From Hufsiella arboris (GTDB taxonomy: Bacteria; Bacteroidota; Bacteroidia; Sphingobacteriales; Sphingobacteriaceae): 64,000 nucleotides of DNA. Numbering within the stretch: position 1 is the first letter of the stretch; each line of letters starts with the position of its first letter. The stretch lies in NCBI RefSeq assembly GCF_009834875.1, contig NZ_WVHT01000007.1, positions 248,001 through 312,000 on the forward strand, read 5' to 3'. The notes under the pieces are model-generated. The model worked only from the letters and a program-made list of their open reading frames with translations, did no database searches and was not told the DNA's origin. The translations under genes and the position numbers were made by a program. This document shows, in pieces, positions 7,695 through 64,000 of the stretch.

Positions 7695-9410
7695 ATGTAC
7701 GTATTAGGAATTAATGCCGCCTTCCACGATTCGGCGGCTTGCCTGTTTCGTGACGGAGTTTTACTTGCTGCGGCCGAAGACGAACGTTTTACACATATTA
7801 AACATGGAAAACGGCCGGTTCCGTTTGCTACCTGGGAATTACCTTTTCATGCTATAGACTATTGCCTCGGTGTTGCAGGCATAAATTTGAGCGAAGTTGA
7901 CCACGTAGCGTATTCGTTTGATCCATATTTATTACTTGGCGGTGAATACAGCGACAAGAGTGCTATCGAAATACCGCTTGCCCTGGGAGCTGAGCCACAT
8001 GGTAAATGGCTGTCGCCCTGGGATCCGCTCTTTCTGTCTTCAATCGTAAATGCGCCTGCGCAGCTTGTAGACGGGTATCCTCATCATTTGCAAAAACGTT
8101 TCAGAGGAACCAGTGTGGATGATTTTACCTGGCATTTTGTGGAGCATCATATTTCTCATGCCGCGAGTTGTTTTCTGCCTTCGCCATTTCAGGATGCGGC
8201 TATTTTAACTCTTGACGGGAGAGGAGAGCTGGCAACCACTACATACAACATTGGCGCCGGAAATAACATGAACCGGATAGGGCAGGTAAATATGCCTCAT
8301 TCGCTCGGCCTTTTATACGAGCAAATTACAACTCATCTCGGCTTCCTGCATTCATCTGATGAATATAAAGTGATGGCTCTTGCATCTTATGGTAAGCCGG
8401 AATTTGTAAACGAATTCAGGGATATGATCAGGCTCGGGCAAAAAGGCCAGTATACCATTTGCGGTGAAAATCTCGAAAATCGCTTTGGGCCGATGCGCTT
8501 GCGTCATGAAGAATTTACGGCTCATCACTTTAATATAGCGCACTCTTTACAAATGGTTTTAGAAGAAACAGCGCTTGAAATCGTCAATTGGTTACACAAC
8601 GAAACGAAAAGTGATAATTTATGCATGGCTGGAGGCGTTGCTTTAAATTGTGTAATGAATGCCCGCATTCGTGATAAAGGCCCTTTCAAAAATATATGGG
8701 TTCAACCCGCGGCCGGCGATTCCGGTACAGCTCTCGGTGCGGCGCAATGGATTGATGTTCAAGTGCGCGCAAGCCAGCAAAAGGATTACGTGATGAACGA
8801 TGTCTATCTGGGACCTGATTACGACGATGAGGCAATTGAGCGCTTCATTAAATGGGCGAAGGTTCCTTATCGAAAATTAAATGATATTGCCAATGAAACA
8901 GCGGATATCCTTGCAGAAGATAAAATTATCGGCTGGTACCAGGGAAGAATGGAATTTGGTCCGCGCTCGCTTGGCAGCCGGTCAATTTTAGCTTCGCCGA
9001 TAAGCCCAAAAATGCAGGCTCGCTTAAATGACGTGAAAGACCGTGAAGACTTCAGGCCGGTAGCCCCAGTAGTTCTGCAGGAAGATGCACATGAATGGTT
9101 CGATGGGGCTGAGTATTCGCCTTTTATGCTGTTTGTTTATGATGTTAAAAAAGACAAAAAACAACTCATTCCAGCTGTAACGCACACGGATGGAACAGCC
9201 CGGATCCAAACAATTAACCGTGAACAACATCCCGAATATTACAGTTTACTAAAAGCATTTAAGGAAAAAACGGGCGTCCCGATTTTAGTAAATACGTCGT
9301 TTAATACGCTTGGTAAACCTATTGTTTGTTCGCCGAGAGACGCGATCGAGTGTTTCTGGACATCGGCATTTGACGCTTTGGTGATAGGATCTTTTTTAAT
9401 CGAAAAGTGA
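7695..9410 (+). CDS. NodU/CmcH-family carbamoyltransferase
   Basis: The 571-residue protein matches the usual length of carbamoyltransferases of the NodU/CmcH/TobZ family, which carbamoylate sugar hydroxyls using carbamoyl phosphate and ATP. The N-terminal kinase-like domain begins LGINAAFHDSAACL and carries AAEDERFT, HHISHAAS and TLDGRGE; AGGVALNC and AAGDSGTALGAA follow. The C-terminal YrdC-like part has GWYQGRMEFGPRSLGSRSI and ILVNTSFN. It opens the rightward arm of the glycan cluster and its stop overlaps the start of the next gene (TGATG), showing translational coupling. A carbamoylated surface or secreted glycan is the likely product. Confidence 0.92.
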   Translation: MYVLGINAAFHDSAACLFRDGVLLAAAEDERFTHIKHGKRPVPFATWELPFHAIDYCLGVAGINLSEVDHVAYSFDPYLLLGGEYSDKSAIEIPLALGAEPHGKWLSPWDPLFLSSIVNAPAQLVDGYPHHLQKRFRGTSVDDFTWHFVEHHISHAASCFLPSPFQDAAILTLDGRGELATTTYNIGAGNNMNRIGQVNMPHSLGLLYEQITTHLGFLHSSDEYKVMALASYGKPEFVNEFRDMIRLGQKGQYTICGENLENRFGPMRLRHEEFTAHHFNIAHSLQMVLEETALEIVNWLHNETKSDNLCMAGGVALNCVMNARIRDKGPFKNIWVQPAAGDSGTALGAAQWIDVQVRASQQKDYVMNDVYLGPDYDDEAIERFIKWAKVPYRKLNDIANETADILAEDKIIGWYQGRMEFGPRSLGSRSILASPISPKMQARLNDVKDREDFRPVAPVVLQEDAHEWFDGAEYSPFMLFVYDVKKDKKQLIPAVTHTDGTARIQTINREQHPEYYSLLKAFKEKTGVPILVNTSFNTLGKPIVCSPRDAIECFWTSAFDALVIGSFLIEK

Positions 9411-10381
9411 TGGAAGTTCTTGTCTCAGTTGTTATACCTACTTACAAACGCCCCGAATTACTGAAACGGTGCATCGAATCCCTGTTTATCCAAACGCTGG
9501 ATCATCAGTTGTATGAGCTGGTCATTGTTGGCGATGGCTTCGATAGCCAAACGAAGGAAGTCGTCAGGACATGGAAAGAAGCTGGTTTTGCAAATCTCAC
9601 ATACATTTATCTTCCGGATAAAAAGGGGCCGGCGGCGGCGCGTAATATGGGCTGGCTTAGTGCGAAAGCTAAATTGATTGCTTTTACTGATGATGATTGT
9701 TTGCCAAAATCAACCTGGCTGCAAACGATACTTCATTGCTGGAACGGAAACGAAGAAATAGCCTGTTCAGGAAAGCTGACCGTTCCCTTATCTGAGAATC
9801 CGAGCGATTATGAGTTGAACACGGCTAACCTGGAAACGGCCGAATTTATCACCGCAAATTGTATATGTACCAAAGCAGCACTTATAAAAACCGGGGGATT
9901 TGACGAACGTTTTTTTATGGCATGGCGGGAAGACAGCGATCTGCATTTTAAGCTGCTTGCCAATAATATTACCATTAAAAAGATACCGGAAGCAGAAGTG
10001 GTTCATCCGGTAAGAACCGCAAAATGGGGCGTCAGCATTAAAGAGCAAAAGAAAGGTATGTTCAACGCGCTTCTCTACAAAAAATATCCTAAGCTCTATA
10101 AAAATAGGATTGGAAATAAAGTGCCGTTGAATTACTATTTAATGGTTCTAACCTTTTTTTGCTTCCTGGTCTGCTTATTCTTCAAAGTTGAGCCATTAGC
10201 TGGATTATCGTTTTCTATATGGCTATTGCTTGTTCTAGAGTTTTTTATCCGGAGGCAGCGCAGAGCAAATCATTCGCTGGTCCATATCGCTGAAATGGCG
10301 GTTACGTCGGCCGTTATACCATTCGTTTCGGTATACTGGCAGTTTTATGGAGCAGTAAAGTATCGGGTGTTATTTATTTGA
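9410..10381 (+). CDS. Family 2 glycosyltransferase (membrane-anchored)
   Basis: This 323-residue GT-A fold enzyme opens with VSVVIPTYKRPELLKRCIESL and has the conserved GPAAARNMG and metal-binding TDDDC motifs typical of GT2. The acceptor-side segment includes GGFDERFFMAWREDSDL, the usual ED region. The C-terminus adds two hydrophobic segments near residues 240-280, so it is probably held at the inner membrane. The ATG at 9410 overlaps the preceding TGA by one base. The next gene starts 2 nt after its stop, so carbamoyltransferase, GT2 and GT9 form a tight operon. Confidence 0.9.
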   Translation: MEVLVSVVIPTYKRPELLKRCIESLFIQTLDHQLYELVIVGDGFDSQTKEVVRTWKEAGFANLTYIYLPDKKGPAAARNMGWLSAKAKLIAFTDDDCLPKSTWLQTILHCWNGNEEIACSGKLTVPLSENPSDYELNTANLETAEFITANCICTKAALIKTGGFDERFFMAWREDSDLHFKLLANNITIKKIPEAEVVHPVRTAKWGVSIKEQKKGMFNALLYKKYPKLYKNRIGNKVPLNYYLMVLTFFCFLVCLFFKVEPLAGLSFSIWLLLVLEFFIRRQRRANHSLVHIAEMAVTSAVIPFVSVYWQFYGAVKYRVLFI

Positions 10382-10383
10382 AT

Positions 10384-11385
10384 ATGAAACTTCCGTCAGG
10401 GTCAATAAAGAAAATTATTGTATTCAGGGCATTACAACTTGGTGACTTGCTATGTTCCATACCGGCCCTCAGGGCTTTGAGAAATTCATATCCAGATGCT
10501 GAGATCACTATAACAGGTTTGCGCTGGATGGAATCCTTGTTGAACAGATTTCCTGATTATTTTGACCGCTTTATTCACTTTCCTGGATATCCGGGGCTGC
10601 CTGAGCAACCATTGGATCCCATTCAGTTCACCGGGTTTTTAGCAGAAGTACAGGCTCAACGCTTCGATCTCGCTTTACAGATGCAGGGCAACGGTTCGCT
10701 GGTGAATCCGATGATTGAATTGTTCAACGCTCGTTACACAGCCGGTTTCAGTACACAAAATGATTATTGGCCGGATAAAGAACTGTTTATCGAATATCCT
10801 GGTTATGGTTCAGAAATCGAGCGGCATCTTCTTTTGATGGAGCACCTCGGAATACAGTTGCTGGGAACGGAGCTGGAGTTTCCGTTAACTGCTCAGGACG
10901 AATCTGATTATAAAACGCTGGATTTTTCCCTCGAACCGCAAAAATATGTCTGTGTGCATCCGGGTTCACGCGGAGCGTGGCGGCAATGGCCGGTAGAATT
11001 TTTTGCAAGTCTCGCTGATCAGTGTGCGGCAAAGGGATATGTTCCTGTTATTACCGGAACGAAGGATGAAATGCATATCGTATTGAAAGTAGCGGAACTG
11101 ATGACGTACGATCCCGTTATTGCGGCCGGCAAAACCAGTTTAGGCGCTGTCGGCGTTTTAATAAAAAATGCCGCTTTACTTATTTCAAATTGTACCGGGG
11201 TGTCGCATATGGCGGCAGCTTTTTCCACTCCAAGTATTGTGATCAGCATGGATGGAGAACCGGAAAGATGGGCGCCGCTTAACAGGGAAGTCCATAAGGT
11301 GTTTGACTGGACCCGCAATCAAGATTTCGGTATAATAAGCAATACCCTGGAAAATTTTCTCCAAAGTCAGGCAGTGGTTTCCTGA
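10384..11385 (+). CDS. Family 9 (heptosyltransferase-like) glycosyltransferase
   Basis: This 333-residue GT9 protein has the N-terminal signature FRALQLGDLLCSIPALRALR and C-terminal VHPGSRGAWRQWP and NCTGVSHMAAA, which match ADP-heptose:LPS heptosyltransferase relatives. The ATG at 10384 is preferred to the in-frame TTG at 10378. It ends the rightward arm of the glycan cluster. Its last 19 bases overlap the end of the opposing GT9 gene. The donor is probably ADP-heptose or a similar nucleotide heptose, by family and by the nearby GmhB-like phosphatase. Confidence 0.9.
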   Translation: MKLPSGSIKKIIVFRALQLGDLLCSIPALRALRNSYPDAEITITGLRWMESLLNRFPDYFDRFIHFPGYPGLPEQPLDPIQFTGFLAEVQAQRFDLALQMQGNGSLVNPMIELFNARYTAGFSTQNDYWPDKELFIEYPGYGSEIERHLLLMEHLGIQLLGTELEFPLTAQDESDYKTLDFSLEPQKYVCVHPGSRGAWRQWPVEFFASLADQCAAKGYVPVITGTKDEMHIVLKVAELMTYDPVIAAGKTSLGAVGVLIKNAALLISNCTGVSHMAAAFSTPSIVISMDGEPERWAPLNREVHKVFDWTRNQDFGIISNTLENFLQSQAVVS

Positions 11386-13065: not shown

Positions 13066-14357
13066 TAAGCAGATCTCAGCAAATTTGACAGATCGGCGTT
13101 CTCTTTGATATTAACTGTTTGCCTAACCGATGTTTGAATTTCTTTATAAACATGATCGATCATTTTGCCAACCTTGCTCCAGGTAAATTCATTGTTTACA
13201 CGTTCAATAGCATTCTTTTTCATTGTTTGCAAAAGTTCCTGGTTGGTGAGCAGTACAGCCGCCTTTTCAGCCAGCGCTTTCGGATCGTTTGCCGGAACTA
13301 AAAAGCCAGTCAGATTATCGGCAACGCTGTATTTAATGCCGCCAACATCGGCGCCAATAACGGGCGTTCCACAAGCCATTGCTTCCAGCGGCGTGATGCC
13401 AAACGGTTCATACCAGGGTGTTGTAATGAAAATGTCGGCTGCCGAATAATAATATTTCAGCATATCCCTGTTCTTGCGCCCCGCAAAAATTACTAAATCT
13501 GCCACGTCGTGTTCCCTTGCTATGTCCATTAACCGAACCAGTTCAGGACATAATTCAGGATTGGAACTGCCTGTTTCACCGCCAACGATTACAAGCTTGG
13601 CTTCAACCGATTTTCGCTTCAATTCGCCCAGCGCTTTTATTACGTTGTCAACGCCTTTTCGCGGAACCATTCTTCCTAATTGTAATAGGATACGGTCGTT
13701 GGCGGGCAGTCCGGCGATTTTTCTTGCCTGGGTTTTATTAACAGGATAAAATTCCTTATCGCTAAATCCGCAAGGTATAACGTTGACTTTAGCTGGATCG
13801 GCATGATATAACTGTACCAGGTCTTCCAGGTCCTGCGGACACTCGGCAATCACTCGGTCGGCTTTTTTTACTGCCTCTTCTTCAAAAAACATACGCGACT
13901 CAGGAAATTTATCGGCTTCCTTCTGATGAATTCTTCGTACGTGGCCCAGGGCATGAAATGTAATTACAAACGGAATATTCAGGATCGCCTTTAGTTCACA
14001 GGCTACGATACCGGACATCCAGAAATTTGCATGAATTAATTCATACCTTATATTTTGATCGGTTATGAACTTCAGCATATTCCCGGTAAACTCCGGCATG
14101 TAATCAAATAGCTGTTCTTTGGGGATGATTTCGGCTGGACCTGCATAAACATGAATTACTCGGATTCCGGGTTCCCACTGTACTAAGTCCGGCAAAATTT
14201 TGTCATCTCTGCGCGTGAAAATGTCAATCTGGTATCCAATATAACTTAGCTGTCTGGCCAGTTCCGCCACATATACATTTTGTCCGCCGCTATCGACGCC
14301 GCCAAGCGCGGCCAGGGGCGAAGCATGCTCGCTTATAAATGCTATTCTGTTTTTCAT
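13065..14357 (-). CDS. Family 4 glycosyltransferase (sucrose-synthase/MshA-like)
   Basis: This 430-residue GT-B enzyme starts with RIAFISEHASPLAALGGVDSGGQNVYVAELA, close to MshA and sucrose-phosphate synthase-type GT4 enzymes. The C-terminal donor domain contains LLQLGRMVPRKGVDNVI and the EX7E motif in TPWYEPFGITPLEAMACGTPVIGADVGG. It is the second gene of the leftward arm of the glycan cluster, 34 bp after another GT4. The donor could be a nucleotide hexose or heptose; sequence alone does not decide. Confidence 0.9.
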   Translation of the reverse strand: MKNRIAFISEHASPLAALGGVDSGGQNVYVAELARQLSYIGYQIDIFTRRDDKILPDLVQWEPGIRVIHVYAGPAEIIPKEQLFDYMPEFTGNMLKFITDQNIRYELIHANFWMSGIVACELKAILNIPFVITFHALGHVRRIHQKEADKFPESRMFFEEEAVKKADRVIAECPQDLEDLVQLYHADPAKVNVIPCGFSDKEFYPVNKTQARKIAGLPANDRILLQLGRMVPRKGVDNVIKALGELKRKSVEAKLVIVGGETGSSNPELCPELVRLMDIAREHDVADLVIFAGRKNRDMLKYYYSAADIFITTPWYEPFGITPLEAMACGTPVIGADVGGIKYSVADNLTGFLVPANDPKALAEKAAVLLTNQELLQTMKKNAIERVNNEFTWSKVGKMIDHVYKEIQTSVRQTVNIKENADLSNLLRSA

Positions 14358-14391
14358 AGTTGATAGGTGTCATAGTTATTATTCCGATGAA

Positions 14392-15363
14392 TCAATTTGA
14401 GAAAAGCATAGGCCTGAAGGTGGCTATAACGTGTTTAATGGTTTCTTCCCAGTCGTTTGCGAAACGTTGAATATTGAAACGTTCCAGGGCGGTTTTTCTT
14501 CCGCCGGCACCCAATTCGGTTGCCATTTGCCGCGATTGAAGCAGCTCTTTCATTTTTTGTACCAACTTCTGAATGTCGGTATGAACATATCCGTTGATAT
14601 CGTTGCTGATCACCATAGGCATCTCGGTAGTTGCCATACCAATAACAGGTATGCCAAGCATCAAGGCTTCGCATACGGCCAGTCCGTGACTGGTATAGCG
14701 AATCGGGTTAAAGAAAAATCGGTATTTGCTAATAAAATCCGGCAATTGCGGATGCAGTACCTCACCAAGTCCTAAATCTTCGGTTCCCATACCGACAAGA
14801 TCAAGCGGAATATGCTTCCTGACTTCGAGGAAGATATCGAGGCCAAGCAGCCGCCCCCTGGTTGGCAGATTGTTGATTACCACGATACCTTTTTCCAGCT
14901 CGCCTGTATATTTCGCTTGCGGTTCTGTAACGCCGTGCTCAATCACCTTAAAGGGCGAATTATTGTTGTCCCACATCAAACTGTTAAAGTGCGTTACATG
15001 AACAATCAAAACTTCGGGGTCATCTACAACGTGTCTGGCATCGGTAGGGTGCTGCCATGGCGGATCATGTTCCAGGTAAATTTTCGGAAGCTGCCGTTTT
15101 TCCTCGCTTAAAATTTCGTGCTGGTCGTGGAGGTAATTTTTTTTGGATTGGAAAAGGATACAGTCGAAGTCCAGGTCGTTAATCTTTTCAACCGGCACTT
15201 CATGTACGTTATCGCCAAACGGAAAGGTTTCGCCACGGCCGTAATAGCCCTCGCTTTTTTCTTCTTTTACTGGAATATAAATGTCATAATTTCCTTTTGA
15301 TAAATAATAGAGATAGCTGCCATGAATATGCCAGGTAAAAATCCTCGGTCTCACAAATCCCAT
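14392..15363 (-). CDS. Family 4-type glycosyltransferase (short)
   Basis: The protein has 323 residues. Motifs in the C-terminal half fit GT-B glycosyltransferases: RFFFNPIRYTSHGLAVCEALMLGIPVIG (the EX7E-like region) and NLPTRGRLLG. The N-terminal half has YLEHDPPWQHPTD and a DVV-type acceptor region but no classical glycine loop, so the protein is shorter than a typical GT4 (about 370). It is the first gene of the leftward arm, and its promoter should lie in the 170 bp up to the pyrophosphatase gene. Confidence 0.82.
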   Translation of the reverse strand: MGFVRPRIFTWHIHGSYLYYLSKGNYDIYIPVKEEKSEGYYGRGETFPFGDNVHEVPVEKINDLDFDCILFQSKKNYLHDQHEILSEEKRQLPKIYLEHDPPWQHPTDARHVVDDPEVLIVHVTHFNSLMWDNNNSPFKVIEHGVTEPQAKYTGELEKGIVVINNLPTRGRLLGLDIFLEVRKHIPLDLVGMGTEDLGLGEVLHPQLPDFISKYRFFFNPIRYTSHGLAVCEALMLGIPVIGMATTEMPMVISNDINGYVHTDIQKLVQKMKELLQSRQMATELGAGGRKTALERFNIQRFANDWEETIKHVIATFRPMLFSN

Positions 15364-59122: not shown

Positions 59123-60013
59123 ATGAACAAAATCTATCTAAAAGCGCTTTTGCTGATTGGATCAGTGTGTCTTCTATCAGCAAACGGAAATGCGCAAATA
59201 AACCCAATGGGAGCGTCATTTTTCCAGAACCAGTACCAGTTTAACCCGGCAATGGCCGGTCTCACCGATAAAAAAGTTGCCTTGAATTTCGGATTCAAAG
59301 CTCAATGGAATGCATTGCCGGGTGCACCTTTTGAGGGCAGTGTAACAGCAGACTATGGCGCGAGCGACCATGTTGGCCTTGGAGTGAACTTGTACAATGA
59401 GAAGGCCGGCTTGATTAAAAGCCTGCGGGCCCTGGGGACCTATGTTTACCGGGTAAAATTTAATCCCGAAGGTAGCAAGCAGCTTAGATTCGGCTTGTCG
59501 GTTGGCGTAAGTAATGAATGGATTGATCCGAATGATGTTATAGGAAGTAACGCGGATCCGCTCGTTTCTCAGTTTAATCAGCGCAGCGCATACCTGGATG
59601 GTGATTTCGGTATTGCTTACACCGGCGAACGCCTGACTATCCAGGGAGCGGTTCCAAGATTAAAAAAGTTTTTAAATCGCGACGACGATCTGTCTACTTT
59701 CGATTACGAGACGTTCTACAGCGCTGTTAGTTATAAATTTTCCTCTAATGGTGGGCTCAATGTTGAGCCGATGCTGTGTTATCGCGGCATTCACGGAATG
59801 GATAACATCGTTGATTTCGGAGCCAATGCAACGTTGCTTAATGAGCAACTGATCCTGATGGCTATGTATCACACTACCAAATCTACAACGTTCGGGTTAG
59901 GTATGAACTTCCGGCAGAAATTCACCATCAATGGAATGTTTACGACTGAAAACCCTATGATGCAGGGGTACACAGCGGGAGAGTTTGAGGTTAATTTGAA
60001 GTTTCACTTGTAA
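59123..60013 (+). CDS. PorP/SprF-family type IX secretion membrane protein
   Basis: The 296-residue protein has a signal peptide (ALLLIGSVCLLSANGNAQ) and the beta-barrel outer-membrane motif pattern of PorP/SprF (INPMGASFFQNQYQFNPAMAGL, YRVKFNPEGSKQLRFGLSVGVSNEWID). Members are attached to specific type IX secreted or gliding substrates. It sits 17 bp after the large secreted protein, in the usual substrate-then-SprF operon. Confidence 0.92.
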   Translation: MNKIYLKALLLIGSVCLLSANGNAQINPMGASFFQNQYQFNPAMAGLTDKKVALNFGFKAQWNALPGAPFEGSVTADYGASDHVGLGVNLYNEKAGLIKSLRALGTYVYRVKFNPEGSKQLRFGLSVGVSNEWIDPNDVIGSNADPLVSQFNQRSAYLDGDFGIAYTGERLTIQGAVPRLKKFLNRDDDLSTFDYETFYSAVSYKFSSNGGLNVEPMLCYRGIHGMDNIVDFGANATLLNEQLILMAMYHTTKSTTFGLGMNFRQKFTINGMFTTENPMMQGYTAGEFEVNLKFHL

Positions 60014-60032: not shown

Positions 60033-60062
60033 AAAAAAGGCATCAAAGTGACGCCTTTTTTT
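60033..60062 (+). terminator. Intrinsic terminator after the PorP/SprF gene
   Basis: AAAAAAGGCATCA pairs with TGACGCCTTTTTT with one mismatch and a short loop, followed by T residues, 20-50 nt past the stop. Confidence 0.8.
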
Positions 60063-60063
60063 A

Positions 60064-60129
60064 TATGTAAATGAATAATTATGTAAATATGTATAAGTTT
60101 GAATTGTAAATTTCTATAATTATGTATGT
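60064..60129. promoter_or_regulatory. TATGTA boxes, left flank of parA cassette
   Basis: TATGTA boxes start at 60064, 60080, 60088 and 60121, the first three in 8-bp register. A reverse ATTTACATA box follows at 60183. A candidate partition site or operator for the small DNA-binding protein encoded at 60261. Confidence 0.55.
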
Positions 60130-60260
60130 CGGTTTGGAACGTATTAACTTCTAGAAAATAATGGTAAAGTGCCTGGATGTAGATTTACATATATGCATAA
60201 TTGTTAACTCGCTTACACATCGCTAAAGAGGAGTTGAAAGTTTTTGGTGTTGATGAAGAA

Positions 60261-60497
60261 TTATGCATTTATGTAAGCCGTTAAGGCTTGTATCGCCATT
60301 TCCTTTAACGAGAGGTCATGTTCAATTCCGTGTGATTTTACTTTTTTCAATAGCACTTTCGGGATCCAAACGTTAAGCTGAGCTTCTTCTTCCTTAATTT
60401 TTTGTTTAATCGGAGTAACCTCCTGGATTGGCATTTTAGGCTGTTCAGTCTTTAATTTATTCGCAAGATTTCCCAGTTTGTTTTTATAGTCGGTCAT
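60261..60497 (-). CDS. Small ribbon-helix-helix-like partition protein
   Basis: This 78-residue protein has a charged, proline-containing N-terminal half and a C-terminal segment (AQLNVWIPKVLLKKVKSHGIEHDLSLKEMAIQALTAYI) that fits a ribbon-helix-helix DNA-binding fold: a short strand then two helices. It follows parA by about 40 bp on the same strand, the normal order for plasmid type Ib parA-parG-type pairs. It probably binds the nearby TATGTA boxes; this is inference. Confidence 0.68.
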   Translation of the reverse strand: MTDYKNKLGNLANKLKTEQPKMPIQEVTPIKQKIKEEEAQLNVWIPKVLLKKVKSHGIEHDLSLKEMAIQALTAYINA

Positions 60498-60537
60498 TTT
60501 TTACAATTATAGATATACAAATTTATGTAATATTGTA

Positions 60538-61137
60538 TTATAGAGCATTAATTATTTCCTCAGCTAGTGAGGATATTTCTTCTTTTGCCTTTTCATCTTC
60601 GCTTTGCAACACTCCACCTGTTATCGGCGAACGTGCAAAAGAAACACGATCATGGATGATGGTCTTAAGCATCGGAATGCTAAACGATTTAAGTAAATTT
60701 TTAACTTCCTTCGTTATTCCGGAACGGTGTTTAATCATATTCATAACGATGCCCGCCTTAAGACTTGGGTCTTGCTTTTTAGCTTCATTTACAAGTTGAA
60801 GTGTCGAGCGAATAGCCATTACGTCGAAGAAGCCCGCTTTGGTAGGAATTAATATGTAATCGGAAATCAGAAAAAGATCAGCTAAGCGATTGGTAAGGTA
60901 AGGTGGTGTGTCAACAATGATGAGATCGTAATCCAGAGAACGGATTTTTTCAAAATGATCTTCACTTATAATAGTCAATTCAGGGTGTTCTTCTTTCAGG
61001 TCTGAAAGACTCCCTTGTAAATCGATATCAACAAGCGCGACGGTTAACTGATCTTTAAAACAGGCGGCAAAGTTTAGGGCGAGCGTGCTTTTTCCGACGC
61101 CACCTTTCTGATGAGCAATTGTGATAATTTTTCCCAT
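60538..61137 (-). CDS. parA: ParA-family partition ATPase (short plasmid type)
   Basis: This 199-residue deviant-Walker ATPase starts MGKIITIAHQKGGVGKSTLALNFA (signature lysine in KGGVGKS), with ALVDIDLQGSLSD and IIVDTPPYLTNR completing the nucleotide pocket. It is short and has no N-terminal HTH, unlike chromosomal ParA/Soj, so it resembles plasmid type Ib proteins. It is followed by the small DNA-binding partner and preceded by two palindromes. No replication gene or integrase is near. Confidence 0.9.
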   Translation of the reverse strand: MGKIITIAHQKGGVGKSTLALNFAACFKDQLTVALVDIDLQGSLSDLKEEHPELTIISEDHFEKIRSLDYDLIIVDTPPYLTNRLADLFLISDYILIPTKAGFFDVMAIRSTLQLVNEAKKQDPSLKAGIVMNMIKHRSGITKEVKNLLKSFSIPMLKTIIHDRVSFARSPITGGVLQSEDEKAKEEISSLAEEIINAL

Positions 61138-61151
61138 GCGGCAAATATAAA

Positions 61152-61197
61152 TTTAGAATTCTAAAAATAGAATAATGTCAAAATTTAGAATTCTAGG
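61152..61197. promoter_or_regulatory. Two palindromes before parA
   Basis: TTTAGAATTCTAAA (61152-61165, perfect 14-bp palindrome) and TTTAGAATTCTA (61184-61195, core TAGAATTCTA) are centred 32 bp apart, about three helical turns, with a half-site TAGAAT at 61168 between them. They lie 15-60 bp upstream of the parA start, a likely operator. Confidence 0.65.
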
Positions 61198-61207
61198 CTT
61201 TTGTTTA

Positions 61208-61224
61208 TATGTATTTATGTATAA
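61208..61224. promoter_or_regulatory. Two TATGTA boxes, right flank of parA cassette
   Basis: TATGTATTT (61208-61216) and TATGTATAA (61216-61224) repeat at exactly 8-bp spacing, as on the other side of the cassette. Confidence 0.5.
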
Positions 61225-61645
61225 AAATATATTTTTTCTTCGATGAAGTCAGCTACGGAGCTGTTAAAATAGGCGTGGGGATATTTGTGACCGCATTGTG
61301 TACCCCGATCATCACAAAACTGAGAAAAATGATAATCGCGTTTACTCGTGCAAAAGAATATTTTAATGTTGAGATTGTTCAAAACCTCATGTATACGATT
61401 AAAGTGTTTGTTAGTTTCGTTTTATAGACAAGAATGTTAGAAAATAAGGAAAATGTACTTTAAAGTAATTTAAAGTGATATCTATTATAAGTTTAATGCT
61501 TTCGTTAGCAAAAAAATCAATTATACCGGCGCGTTAAGAACCTTCGTCGGAAGCAGTTGCACAATCAATTGTGTATAACTGTGAAATTTTAATTAGGCCG
61601 TGGCACAATAATTTCTTTTCGCATGCGAGAACCTGAACTGCTTGC

Positions 61646-64000
61646 ATGAGAAAATCTTTACTTGTCATTCTGAAATATAGAATTTTATCCATTAACAAAT
61701 TCTTTGGAATAAATAGAAATCTCTCTACCAGATTTAGCACGGCTCTGGTAAAAAAGGCATTCTTGCTTTTTTTTATCGCACTTTCATTTTGCAAATCATA
61801 CGGTCAATCTGGGATTACAGAAATTTACACCGATTATAAAGGTTATTGGGCTTCAGGATCTGGAACTACAGGAAACCTGGCCACAAGTTCGGTGAAACCC
61901 GATAATGATCATAATGTATTGGCATTTAAATGGAATGGGACGATCTATTCGACAGGCGTAAATGATGCAACGCTAACCAGTAAGGGCGTAACATTTACAC
62001 CTATGCGATTTCAGGCGTTCCCGGTTCGGAATTATGCGCTCGATGCAGGTTCTTTGCCGGGCGTAGGAGCAATGAAAGACGGTACGCTGAGTGTAGCCGT
62101 TACGCCTCCTTATTTTTCGATTCCAGCAAATGTTTCAGATTTTTTAACTGACGGCATCAACGGATTAAATATCGGGACTGGTATTGCAAACGTTAAAGCA
62201 GGTACCCTAACTTTCGACTTTGGCGGAATTATCACACCTGCGCAAATTAATGATGGTATTCCGGATATCATTGTAAGCCAGGTTGCCCAGCCGGATGCTA
62301 CATTAGATTCAGTATATTTTACTGATGGATCAGGCGCATTAGTTGGAAATAGGGTAGCAATAAACCATACTCTTAGTCCTTCTGTAGGTAACTGGATGAT
62401 CGATTTTTACCGGGCAACTGATGGAGCTGTACAATATACCAATACCGAACGCCCGATTCGGATTTGGGCTGCAGATCTGAGCGCCTTCGGTATTACATCA
62501 GCGAATTATACACCTGCCTTAATTTTAAAATACAAATTAAATGGTTCCAGCGATCCCGCGTTTTTAGCATTTAACGATCAGGCAATCCAAGTCGTAAGTG
62601 CAAATGATGATAATGCTTCAACAGCGATAAATACGTCAACCAGCATTGATGTTTTAGCAAATGACAAACCTTCAGCCGCATTAAAAGTTTCGAGTGTTAC
62701 GGTAACCATCGCGCCGCTGCACGGAACAACTTCAGTGAATAGCAGCACCGGCGCCATTACTTATACGCCAACAGCAGGTTATTATGGTACGGATCAATTT
62801 ACCTATAGCGTTTGTAATAATAATACATCAAACCCCCAATGCGACGATGCCAAGGTCTCAATAAATGTAGGTCCTGATGTAGCAACACCAGTATTTACAA
62901 GTGGAAGTTCCTCTTCGCGGTGCCAGGGATCCGGAACAGTTACCTATTCTGCTACCGCGAATAACTCAACAAGCATAAGCTATTCGTTGACACCTACGAC
63001 GGCGGGAACGATTAATTCCTCTACAGGGCTAGTTACCTGGGCTGCGGGCTTTTCAGGAATCGCAACTATTACAGCTGTTGCAACTGGTGTTAACGGACCA
63101 AAGTCTGCTGCACATACGGTAACTGTTTATGCCCCTCCGGTGTTATCAAGTGCTGCAGCAGTTTCGGTATGCAACAATACGGCTTTGGGCTACACCGCCA
63201 CAAGCTCCACAAGCGGTACAACGTTTAGCTGGACCCGCGCGGCGGTTACTGGTATCAGCAACGCCGCTTCAAGCGGGAACGGAGCCGGTATAAACGAGAC
63301 GTTGATTAATACGACCGGCAGTCCGGTTGATGTGACCTACGTAGTTATGCTTACGGCAAATAGTTGTCCAAATACCCAAAATGTTGTCGTAACAGTTGGT
63401 GCTGCTAATATAATTGCGGCGCCGACAACAACAACGTTTTGTATTACAAGTTCACCAACTAATATTAATCTGACCGGATCTAATATTTCAGGAGCAACTT
63501 ATCAATGGCAGATTAATACGGACCCATATAATTTTGGCACTAACGGAGCATATTCGGATATTTCAGGCGCAACTTCAAAGGATTATGATCCCGGAGTAAT
63601 AACACAATCTACTGCTTACAGACGAAAAGTAACAAGCGGCTGTATATCGACAAGTGATTATGTTGCTTTTTACGTTACTCCAACGGTAACAGGAAATAGT
63701 ATTACCGCTCAGGGTTCAACCACCACTTGCGGAAGTTTTACTAATAAATATATCGATGGTACTTATCCGTCCGGTGGAAACAATAACACACACACGTTTC
63801 AATGGCAAAGCTCTGCAGATGGTACAAACTTTACCAATATAGCTGGAGCTACAAGCCAGCAGTACACAGCTGCAACGATTAATACCTCAACCTATTTTAG
63901 AAGATTAACGATCTCCGGATATTGTACATATCCAAGTAACACTGTTTATTATAATACTAACGGCGCCGAAACCCCCGGTTCTATTTGGGGCAATAGTTCT
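61646..64000 (+). CDS. Large secreted multi-domain surface protein, partial
   Basis: The open frame runs from the ATG at 61646 past the right edge (785 residues seen). The first 36 residues are basic and precede a hydrophobic segment (KKAFLLFFIALSFCKSYGQ) that looks like the true export signal; no closer ATG is available. Residues about 320-410 form a cadherin/VCBS-like domain (IDVLANDKPS, GYYGTDQFTYSV). Later Ig-like domains contain paired Cys and TYQWQ / TFQWQSSADGTNFTNIAGATSQQY motifs, common in Bacteroidota type IX secreted proteins. The C-terminal sorting domain is outside the window. Confidence 0.85.
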   Translation, partial: MRKSLLVILKYRILSINKFFGINRNLSTRFSTALVKKAFLLFFIALSFCKSYGQSGITEIYTDYKGYWASGSGTTGNLATSSVKPDNDHNVLAFKWNGTIYSTGVNDATLTSKGVTFTPMRFQAFPVRNYALDAGSLPGVGAMKDGTLSVAVTPPYFSIPANVSDFLTDGINGLNIGTGIANVKAGTLTFDFGGIITPAQINDGIPDIIVSQVAQPDATLDSVYFTDGSGALVGNRVAINHTLSPSVGNWMIDFYRATDGAVQYTNTERPIRIWAADLSAFGITSANYTPALILKYKLNGSSDPAFLAFNDQAIQVVSANDDNASTAINTSTSIDVLANDKPSAALKVSSVTVTIAPLHGTTSVNSSTGAITYTPTAGYYGTDQFTYSVCNNNTSNPQCDDAKVSINVGPDVATPVFTSGSSSSRCQGSGTVTYSATANNSTSISYSLTPTTAGTINSSTGLVTWAAGFSGIATITAVATGVNGPKSAAHTVTVYAPPVLSSAAAVSVCNNTALGYTATSSTSGTTFSWTRAAVTGISNAASSGNGAGINETLINTTGSPVDVTYVVMLTANSCPNTQNVVVTVGAANIIAAPTTTTFCITSSPTNINLTGSNISGATYQWQINTDPYNFGTNGAYSDISGATSKDYDPGVITQSTAYRRKVTSGCISTSDYVAFYVTPTVTGNSITAQGSTTTCGSFTNKYIDGTYPSGGNNNTHTFQWQSSADGTNFTNIAGATSQQYTAATINTSTYFRRLTISGYCTYPSNTVYYNTNGAETPGSIWGNSS

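Follow-up and report, generated by a model that had tools for sequence, protein, structure and literature searches.

The window, i.e. the whole stretch of 64,000 nucleotides of Hufsiella arboris DNA that was analysed, carries a two-gene cassette at positions 60062-61221. Both genes are on the minus strand: parA (61137-60538, 199 aa) is followed by a gene for a 78-aa ribbon-helix-helix-like (RHH) protein (60497-60261), and both open reading frames are as an earlier, sequence-only reading of this DNA had described them. The neighbours are given as context outside the cassette. On the left lies a gene for a PorP/SprF protein of the type IX secretion system (59123..60013, plus strand; PF11751, 5e-37), on the right a gene for a large Ig/cadherin-like surface protein (61646..64000, plus strand; PF17963), a frame of 1225 aa that runs to, and is open at, the end of contig C54. 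The cassette is placed between a CHU_C adhesin-PorP pair and the surface protein. There are 60 kb of chromosomal genes to its left, and the contig ends about 2.1 kb to the right of the array upstream of parA and 2.2 kb past the start of the right-hand neighbour, so that the right flank is short. Relatives of the right-hand gene were sought in 60 genomes and none were found. An additional open reading frame at 61209-61427 (plus strand, 72 aa) is regarded as a chance one: it has no family match and overlaps the array of repeats upstream of parA.

The parA and RHH proteins

The ParA protein belongs to the size class of ParF and is a deviant Walker ATPase in which the motifs KGGVGKST, DIDLQGS and LIIVDTPP are all intact; the N-terminal HTH domain is absent, as had been claimed, and all this agrees with the small, HTH-less ParA of type Ib systems. 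It matches Pfam AAA_31 and CbiA, and scores 141 bits against the NF041546 ParA_partition family, i.e. under the family cut-off of 180. The alignment to the plasmid ParF structure 4dzz is full-length (1.4e-12), and only one of 72 near-invariant columns is altered in the window protein.

The small protein consists of a conserved N-terminal tail (TDYKNKLGNLANKLK..PIQEV; the family pattern is YKxKLGxLAxKLK...PIQEV) and a C-terminal beta-alpha-alpha domain whose beta-strand reads QLNVWIP. When searched alone against the curated Pfam and NCBIfam families it gave no match above cut-off; a Pfam RNA_helicase_helical match (0.002, below cut-off) was dismissed as spurious. A profile was built from 56 relatives and searched against solved structures, where it matches 9kkd (1e-8), SvtR 2kel (1.5e-5) and Omega (0.006), with ParG at E = 1.1. 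In the AlphaFold2 model an N-terminal helix and a linker lead up to a strand-like segment and two helices (47-60 and 64-77, pLDDT 93-95), laid out as in RHH proteins. Foldseek matches of this model to CopG, Arc and CdbA are each weak (E > 0.4) and were taken merely as consistent with the RHH fold. Taken together, the profile and the model support an RHH fold for the small protein. A scan of IMG/VR with the RHH alignment returned no relative.

The gene order, the profile, the model and the conserved neighbour genes bear out the type Ib arrangement with an RHH-like partner proposed by the sequence-only reading, i.e. an adjacent small protein with a C-terminal RHH domain (the Foldseek support for which is weak) and an N-terminal tail. 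The tail of the window protein holds no arginine, and near-invariant lysines are found there instead; it lacks the ATPase-stimulating arginine-finger motif of the ParG tail, a trait of that subgroup that does not define RHH-ParB systems as a whole, and for this reason we do not call the protein a ParG. A lysine may replace the arginine finger.

Octamer arrays in the window

TATGTA boxes are present at 60064, 60080, 60088, 60121, 60270, 60524, 61208 and 61216, exactly where the sequence-only reading had listed them, with others on the minus strand at 60186 and inside parA at 60853. The box at 60270 falls within the 3' end of the RHH gene, and the one at 60121 lies 33 bp from that at 60088, i.e. 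one base out of register. The hexamer as such shows only mild enrichment in the window (39 copies, where 27.6 +/- 5.7 are expected; 4 of 100 shuffles reach 39). The 8-bp doublet TATGTANNTATGTA, on the other hand, occurs twice (60080-60093 and 61208-61221) against 0.00 expected, and its degenerate form TAYRTANNTAYRTA twice against 0.04 expected. In the 4.8-Mb genome there are exactly two phased doublets, both at the flanks of the cassette, while a reversed-pattern control gave 1.

The 8-bp phasing was also scored independently of any motif, as the self-identity at lags 8, 16 and 24 over 84-bp stretches. The two flanks of the cassette rank above all other stretches of the 64 kb, the downstream one as the second-highest region, which together with the doublet counts shows that the phasing is real. 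For the upstream 84 bp the lag-8 z is 4.1, and 0 of 1000 dinucleotide shuffles are as high.

The upstream pair of boxes begins an unbroken octamer run that the sequence-only reading had missed. This predicted operator/centromere array (61142-61221, minus strand) consists of ten octamers in one register over 80 bp, TACATAAA TACATATA AACAAAAG CCTAGAAT TCTAAATT TTGACATT ATTCTATT TTTAGAAT TCTAAATT TATATTTG, followed by CCGC-ATG, and rests on the sequence, on the periodicity and on the same position being occupied in homologues. Among the ten, the TATGTA-like and TAGAAT-like octamers alone look strong. The last octamer, TATATTTG (61142-61149, minus strand), lies just before the parA ATG, so that the array reaches into the predicted parA promoter. 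Bacteroidota-type -7 promoter elements have the consensus TAnnTTTG, and we take TATATTTG to be one of them; an element of this type also precedes the start codon in four relatives (L007, L014, L015 and L135).

The remaining arrays, all on the minus strand, are shorter. The one between parA and the RHH gene (60498-60537), TACAATAT TACATAAA TTTGTATA TCTATAAT TGTAAAAA, was recognised by its periodicity (lag-8 z = 2.3; 15 of 1000 shuffles as high). Downstream of the RHH gene, a phased array TATGCATA TATGTAAA TCTACATC (60176-60199), absent from the earlier list, has a core, TATGCATATATGTAAAT, that is also found 3' of the RHH gene in L014. Next come TACATAAT TATAGAAA TTTACAAT (60103-60126), an array that is weak alone and one base off the register of the outermost one, and finally TACATATT TACATAAT TATTCATT TACATATA (60062-60093), which contains a phased doublet. 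An array of short phased repeats near the operon, here with a phase of 8 bp, is a further trait of type Ib systems.

A scan of GTDB genomes gave more than 50 close relatives (58-76% identity), in nearly all of which the small gene lies directly 3' of parA; about 50 homologous loci have kept the gene pair together with the 8-bp phase. This conservation is comparative evidence for the phasing that the sequence-only reading had pointed out. Upstream of parA, 123 of 130 distances between TATGTA/TACATA pairs are multiples of 8 (residues modulo 8: 123, 1, 0, 0, 6, 0, 0, 0), and between the genes 101 of 119 (101, 3, 0, 0, 4, 3, 0, 8), where the mean lag-8 z is 3.96 over 43 loci. The homologous loci hold 224 such boxes against 38.9 in shuffles. 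Some loci contain no TATGTA at all and have other boxes in the identical 8-bp phase. Even in distant plasmids, with ParA 40-55% identical, the lag-8 periodicity upstream of parA is mostly kept.

It is conspicuous that the class of box follows the beta-strand of the RHH protein. QLNVW/QLNTW goes with TATGTA (29 of 30 classified loci), RFNNW with CATTTG/TGTTCA (7/7), QFNNW with TCTATA (5/5) and QFNNR with TAGCAA/TATCAA (5/5), i.e. the pairing holds in 46 of the 47 classified loci. This fraction is optimistic, since the two main groups had been seen before the box lists were drawn up, and loci that are related do not count as independent. L048 is the single exception, and a few loci are unclassified. 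Since the box sequence changes together with the beta-strand, the comparison implies that the small protein is the one that binds the octamer boxes. Moreover, the strand classes are scattered on the ParA tree, with RFNNW nested in the QLNTW clade, so box and strand have probably switched together more than once; for binding of the boxes by the small protein this is the best, if indirect, evidence. A further class of box is seen in a distant copy (L197:9605-10600 in genome G089), where an 8-bp array of the GTATAAAC/GTATATAC type lies directly 3' of the small gene; this copy has an integrase at a distance of about 1.5 kb.

Origin of the cassette and orphan copies in other genomes

The same gene order is found on complete plasmids, in many cases close to a replication gene; the pair is annotated there as ParA with a 'CopG' or a 'hypothetical protein'. 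Copies on Bacteroidota plasmids (Sphingobacterium pWB1, Runella and Spirosoma plasmids) and in Mucilaginibacter ICEs show the same cassette and the same periodicity; unlike the window copy, they adjoin rep or mob genes, and they are unnamed in annotation. Among 70 other copies of the family, 61 lie beside plasmid or ICE genes: 13 are near Rep_3, and 48 are near the MobC-relaxase-TraG genes of ICEs.

In the tree, the window ParA falls within the clade of Rep_3 plasmids, as sister to a copy from a Desertivirga plasmid (L008; 89/90), and outside the clade of Mucilaginibacter ICEs (100/99). Substitutions between the window copy and L008 are saturated for dN/dS. No rep, relaxase, TraG or integrase gene was found around the window copy, in agreement with the earlier statement that neither a rep gene nor an integrase accompanies it. 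MobC, relaxase and TraG genes directly after the RHH gene, which are the trait of the Mucilaginibacter-type ICEs, are likewise missing from the window, so a remnant of such an ICE is rejected on gene content and tree position alike. Of the origins that the sequence-only reading had left side by side (plasmid, ICE or chromosome), the plasmid is favoured by the tree and by the Rep_3-linked sister, and the ICE drops out. Because the cassette belongs to a clade of Rep_3 plasmids yet has no rep, relaxase or integrase gene alongside, we regard it as very probably a plasmid-derived, ParF/ParG-like RHH type I partition module that is stranded on the chromosome. The stranding, already suspected in the sequence-only reading, is supported within the contig by the chromosomal genes on the left, with a short right flank, and by the whole genome, in which a search for Rep_3 found none, although the genome may have a replication gene that belongs to a different family.

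The sister genome G001 has no copy of the cassette. There cinA-odhB is followed by an rsmD-like gene, and the adhesin, porP and par genes are all missing. The homologue of this rsmD-like gene lies deep within contig C12 of the genome of the window (G000), and we therefore read the difference as a rearrangement and not as a clean empty site. The same genome has, at G000:C53:113216-114864, a MobA-type relaxase and next to it a second ParA-like gene (29% identity); this is probably an ICE that resides in the genome and carries a distantly related ParA.

We note several other observations on mobile copies. The copies of Pedobacter mendelii and P. jejuensis (L006 and L007) have identical parA proteins and an identical gene layout over 5.9 kb, which suggests a recent plasmid transfer between the two species. 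The Desertivirga plasmid cassette (L008:4800-6400) is flanked by inverted AAACAGGTTTTATAA / TTATAAAACCTGTTT, and the Pontibacter copies L009 and L012 have a similar motif on their upstream side; it may mark a site of replication or recombination. The record PP438423.1, named Microcystis phage Mwe-JY31, encodes at 14074-14652 (H31) a ParA with 49% identity to that of the window; the record could stem from a phage-plasmid or from a plasmid of Bacteroidota that was misassigned. Among decaying ICE-type copies the RHH gene is lost in L180:9591 (G205), parA has a nonsense codon in L053/L185, and parA is frameshifted in L056/L191.

Three copies elsewhere, L135, L138 (=L014) and L187, have both genes and the arrays, and about 10 kb of flank without the mobility genes that were searched. 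L135 (5303-10400; genome a single contig of 5.3 Mb) and L138 (reverse, 8113-10400) are orphan parA-rhh pairs of two Mucilaginibacter genomes that share SusC, SusD and two more neighbours (86-95% identity) on one side; L135 has extra genes in between, and the other side differs between the two. Given the shared SusC/SusD neighbours, the orphan was most likely inherited in place. Between L135 and L138 the dN/dS is 0.03-0.05 for parA and about 0.03 for rhh, rough values as dS is saturated (> 1), close to the 0.025 of the neighbouring susD, and the boxes are kept in phase while the surrounding spacer has diverged. These two features show that orphan cassettes can be maintained by selection, as seen for the two Mucilaginibacter copies and not for the window copy.

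The orphans, together with the intact motifs and arrays of the window copy, are what speaks for a module that has been domesticated by the chromosome and has its own task there, such as secondary segregation or tethering, or the exclusion of plasmids and ICEs that carry TATGTA boxes. We consider this possible, if rather unlikely, for the window: its copy has no synteny partner, the cassette is missing from G001, and purifying selection in the window lineage may reflect time spent on plasmids. It is improbable that the cassette is part of an integrated plasmid or ICE that continues past the contig end. The contig end is indeed close on the right and ICE copies are common in the family, but the genome has no Rep_3, its three relaxase genes all lie well inside other contigs, and both immediate neighbours are surface-protein loci; moreover, in ICEs mobC and the relaxase directly follow the RHH gene, whereas in the window porP does.

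Proposed mechanism and comparison with known systems

The reading of the cassette as a type I partition system with an RHH ParB (type Ib, ParF/ParG-like) is supported by sequence comparison and by the structural model. RHH dimers would bind tandem 8-bp boxes, best TATGTA/TACATA, with one beta-ribbon per octamer, and would cover the upstream, the intergenic and the downstream arrays. Binding at the upstream array would also repress the parA operon; as this array extends into the promoter predicted for parA, such autoregulation is likely. On a plasmid, the arrays in their coated form would serve as the centromere and be captured by nucleoid-bound ParA-ATP, whose hydrolysis of ATP would be stimulated by the conserved tail at the N-terminus of the RHH protein, by analogy with ParF/ParG and pSM19035. 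With both genes intact and all arrays present, and with no replicon of its own, the window cassette is most likely an autoregulated relic or a module that has been retained.

The nearest known counterpart is ParF/ParG/parH of plasmid TP228 (type Ib), in which the roles of the array and the tail have been described (PMC7308502, PMC5016525). A ParF-size ATPase, a downstream small RHH protein with an N-terminal tail and a box period of 8 bp are common to both, and a TP228-type parFG of an E. coli IncX1 plasmid (L204), used as a control, gave upstream z values of 4.4, 3.8 and 3.1 at lags 8, 16 and 24. Unlike TP228, where the boxes of ParG are tetramers, the window has TATGTA as its box and further arrays in the intergenic spacer and 3' of the operon; unlike that of ParG, its tail is strongly conserved (PIQEV), has a predicted helical start and no arginine, and the sequence similarity to ParG stays at E = 1.1.

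The delta/omega system of pSM19035 is similar in that the RHH profile matches Omega. Omega is an RHH dimer that binds contiguous short repeats in either orientation, and ParA activation needs at least four contiguous 7-bp repeats (PMC9499535), to be compared with the ten octamers upstream of the window parA. Delta and omega are transcribed separately and not as a single operon (PMC5016525). The period of pSM19035 is 7 and that of the window 8; the window arrays have a signal at lag 8 and none at lag 7, which sets them apart from the heptads of the Omega/delta group. With chromosomal ParABS the cassette shares the function of the ParA class, and it differs in having neither an HTH/CTPase ParB nor a parS of the spreading type, the partner being the 78-aa RHH protein.

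It is also quite unlikely that the arrays are transcriptional operators of the parA operon only, with the RHH protein an ordinary Arc/CopG-like repressor. The upstream array does run into the promoter and the fold resembles CopG/Arc in the weak Foldseek matches; yet some arrays are found in the intergenic spacer and 3' of the genes, distant from the promoter, the RHH protein is in all cases paired with a ParF-like ATPase, and the cassette travels on plasmids and ICEs. Chance boxes in spacers of about 80% A+T, in keeping with a mildly enriched hexamer, are of negligible probability, refuted by the doublet counts, the periodicity rank and a phase that relatives conserve with different boxes.

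The type of cassette is thus already known, and the window copy is a new RHH type I partition system of this type. A search of the literature, covering papers outside subscription, found no described RHH partition system of Bacteroidota, and what the comparison defines is a family of centromere-binding RHH proteins of Bacteroidota that apparently has no name, with 8-bp sites, on plasmids and ICEs. The interest lies in the covariation of box and strand and in the syntenic orphans, the machine itself being of no new kind. Natural switches of box that go with few beta-strand residues offer a test bed for DNA choice by RHH proteins and for the origin of plasmid incompatibility groups. That stranded partition copies can be kept under selection is unexpected, and the syntenic orphans under purifying selection make a chromosomal use of RHH partition testable. 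It is conceivable, if on present evidence unlikely, that some Bacteroidota chromosomes keep an orphan RHH partition cassette for auxiliary segregation or as a centromere-based barrier to plasmids and ICEs with the same box; if true, the statement that HTH-ParB is the sole partition type on bacterial chromosomes (PMC13245405) would need an exception.
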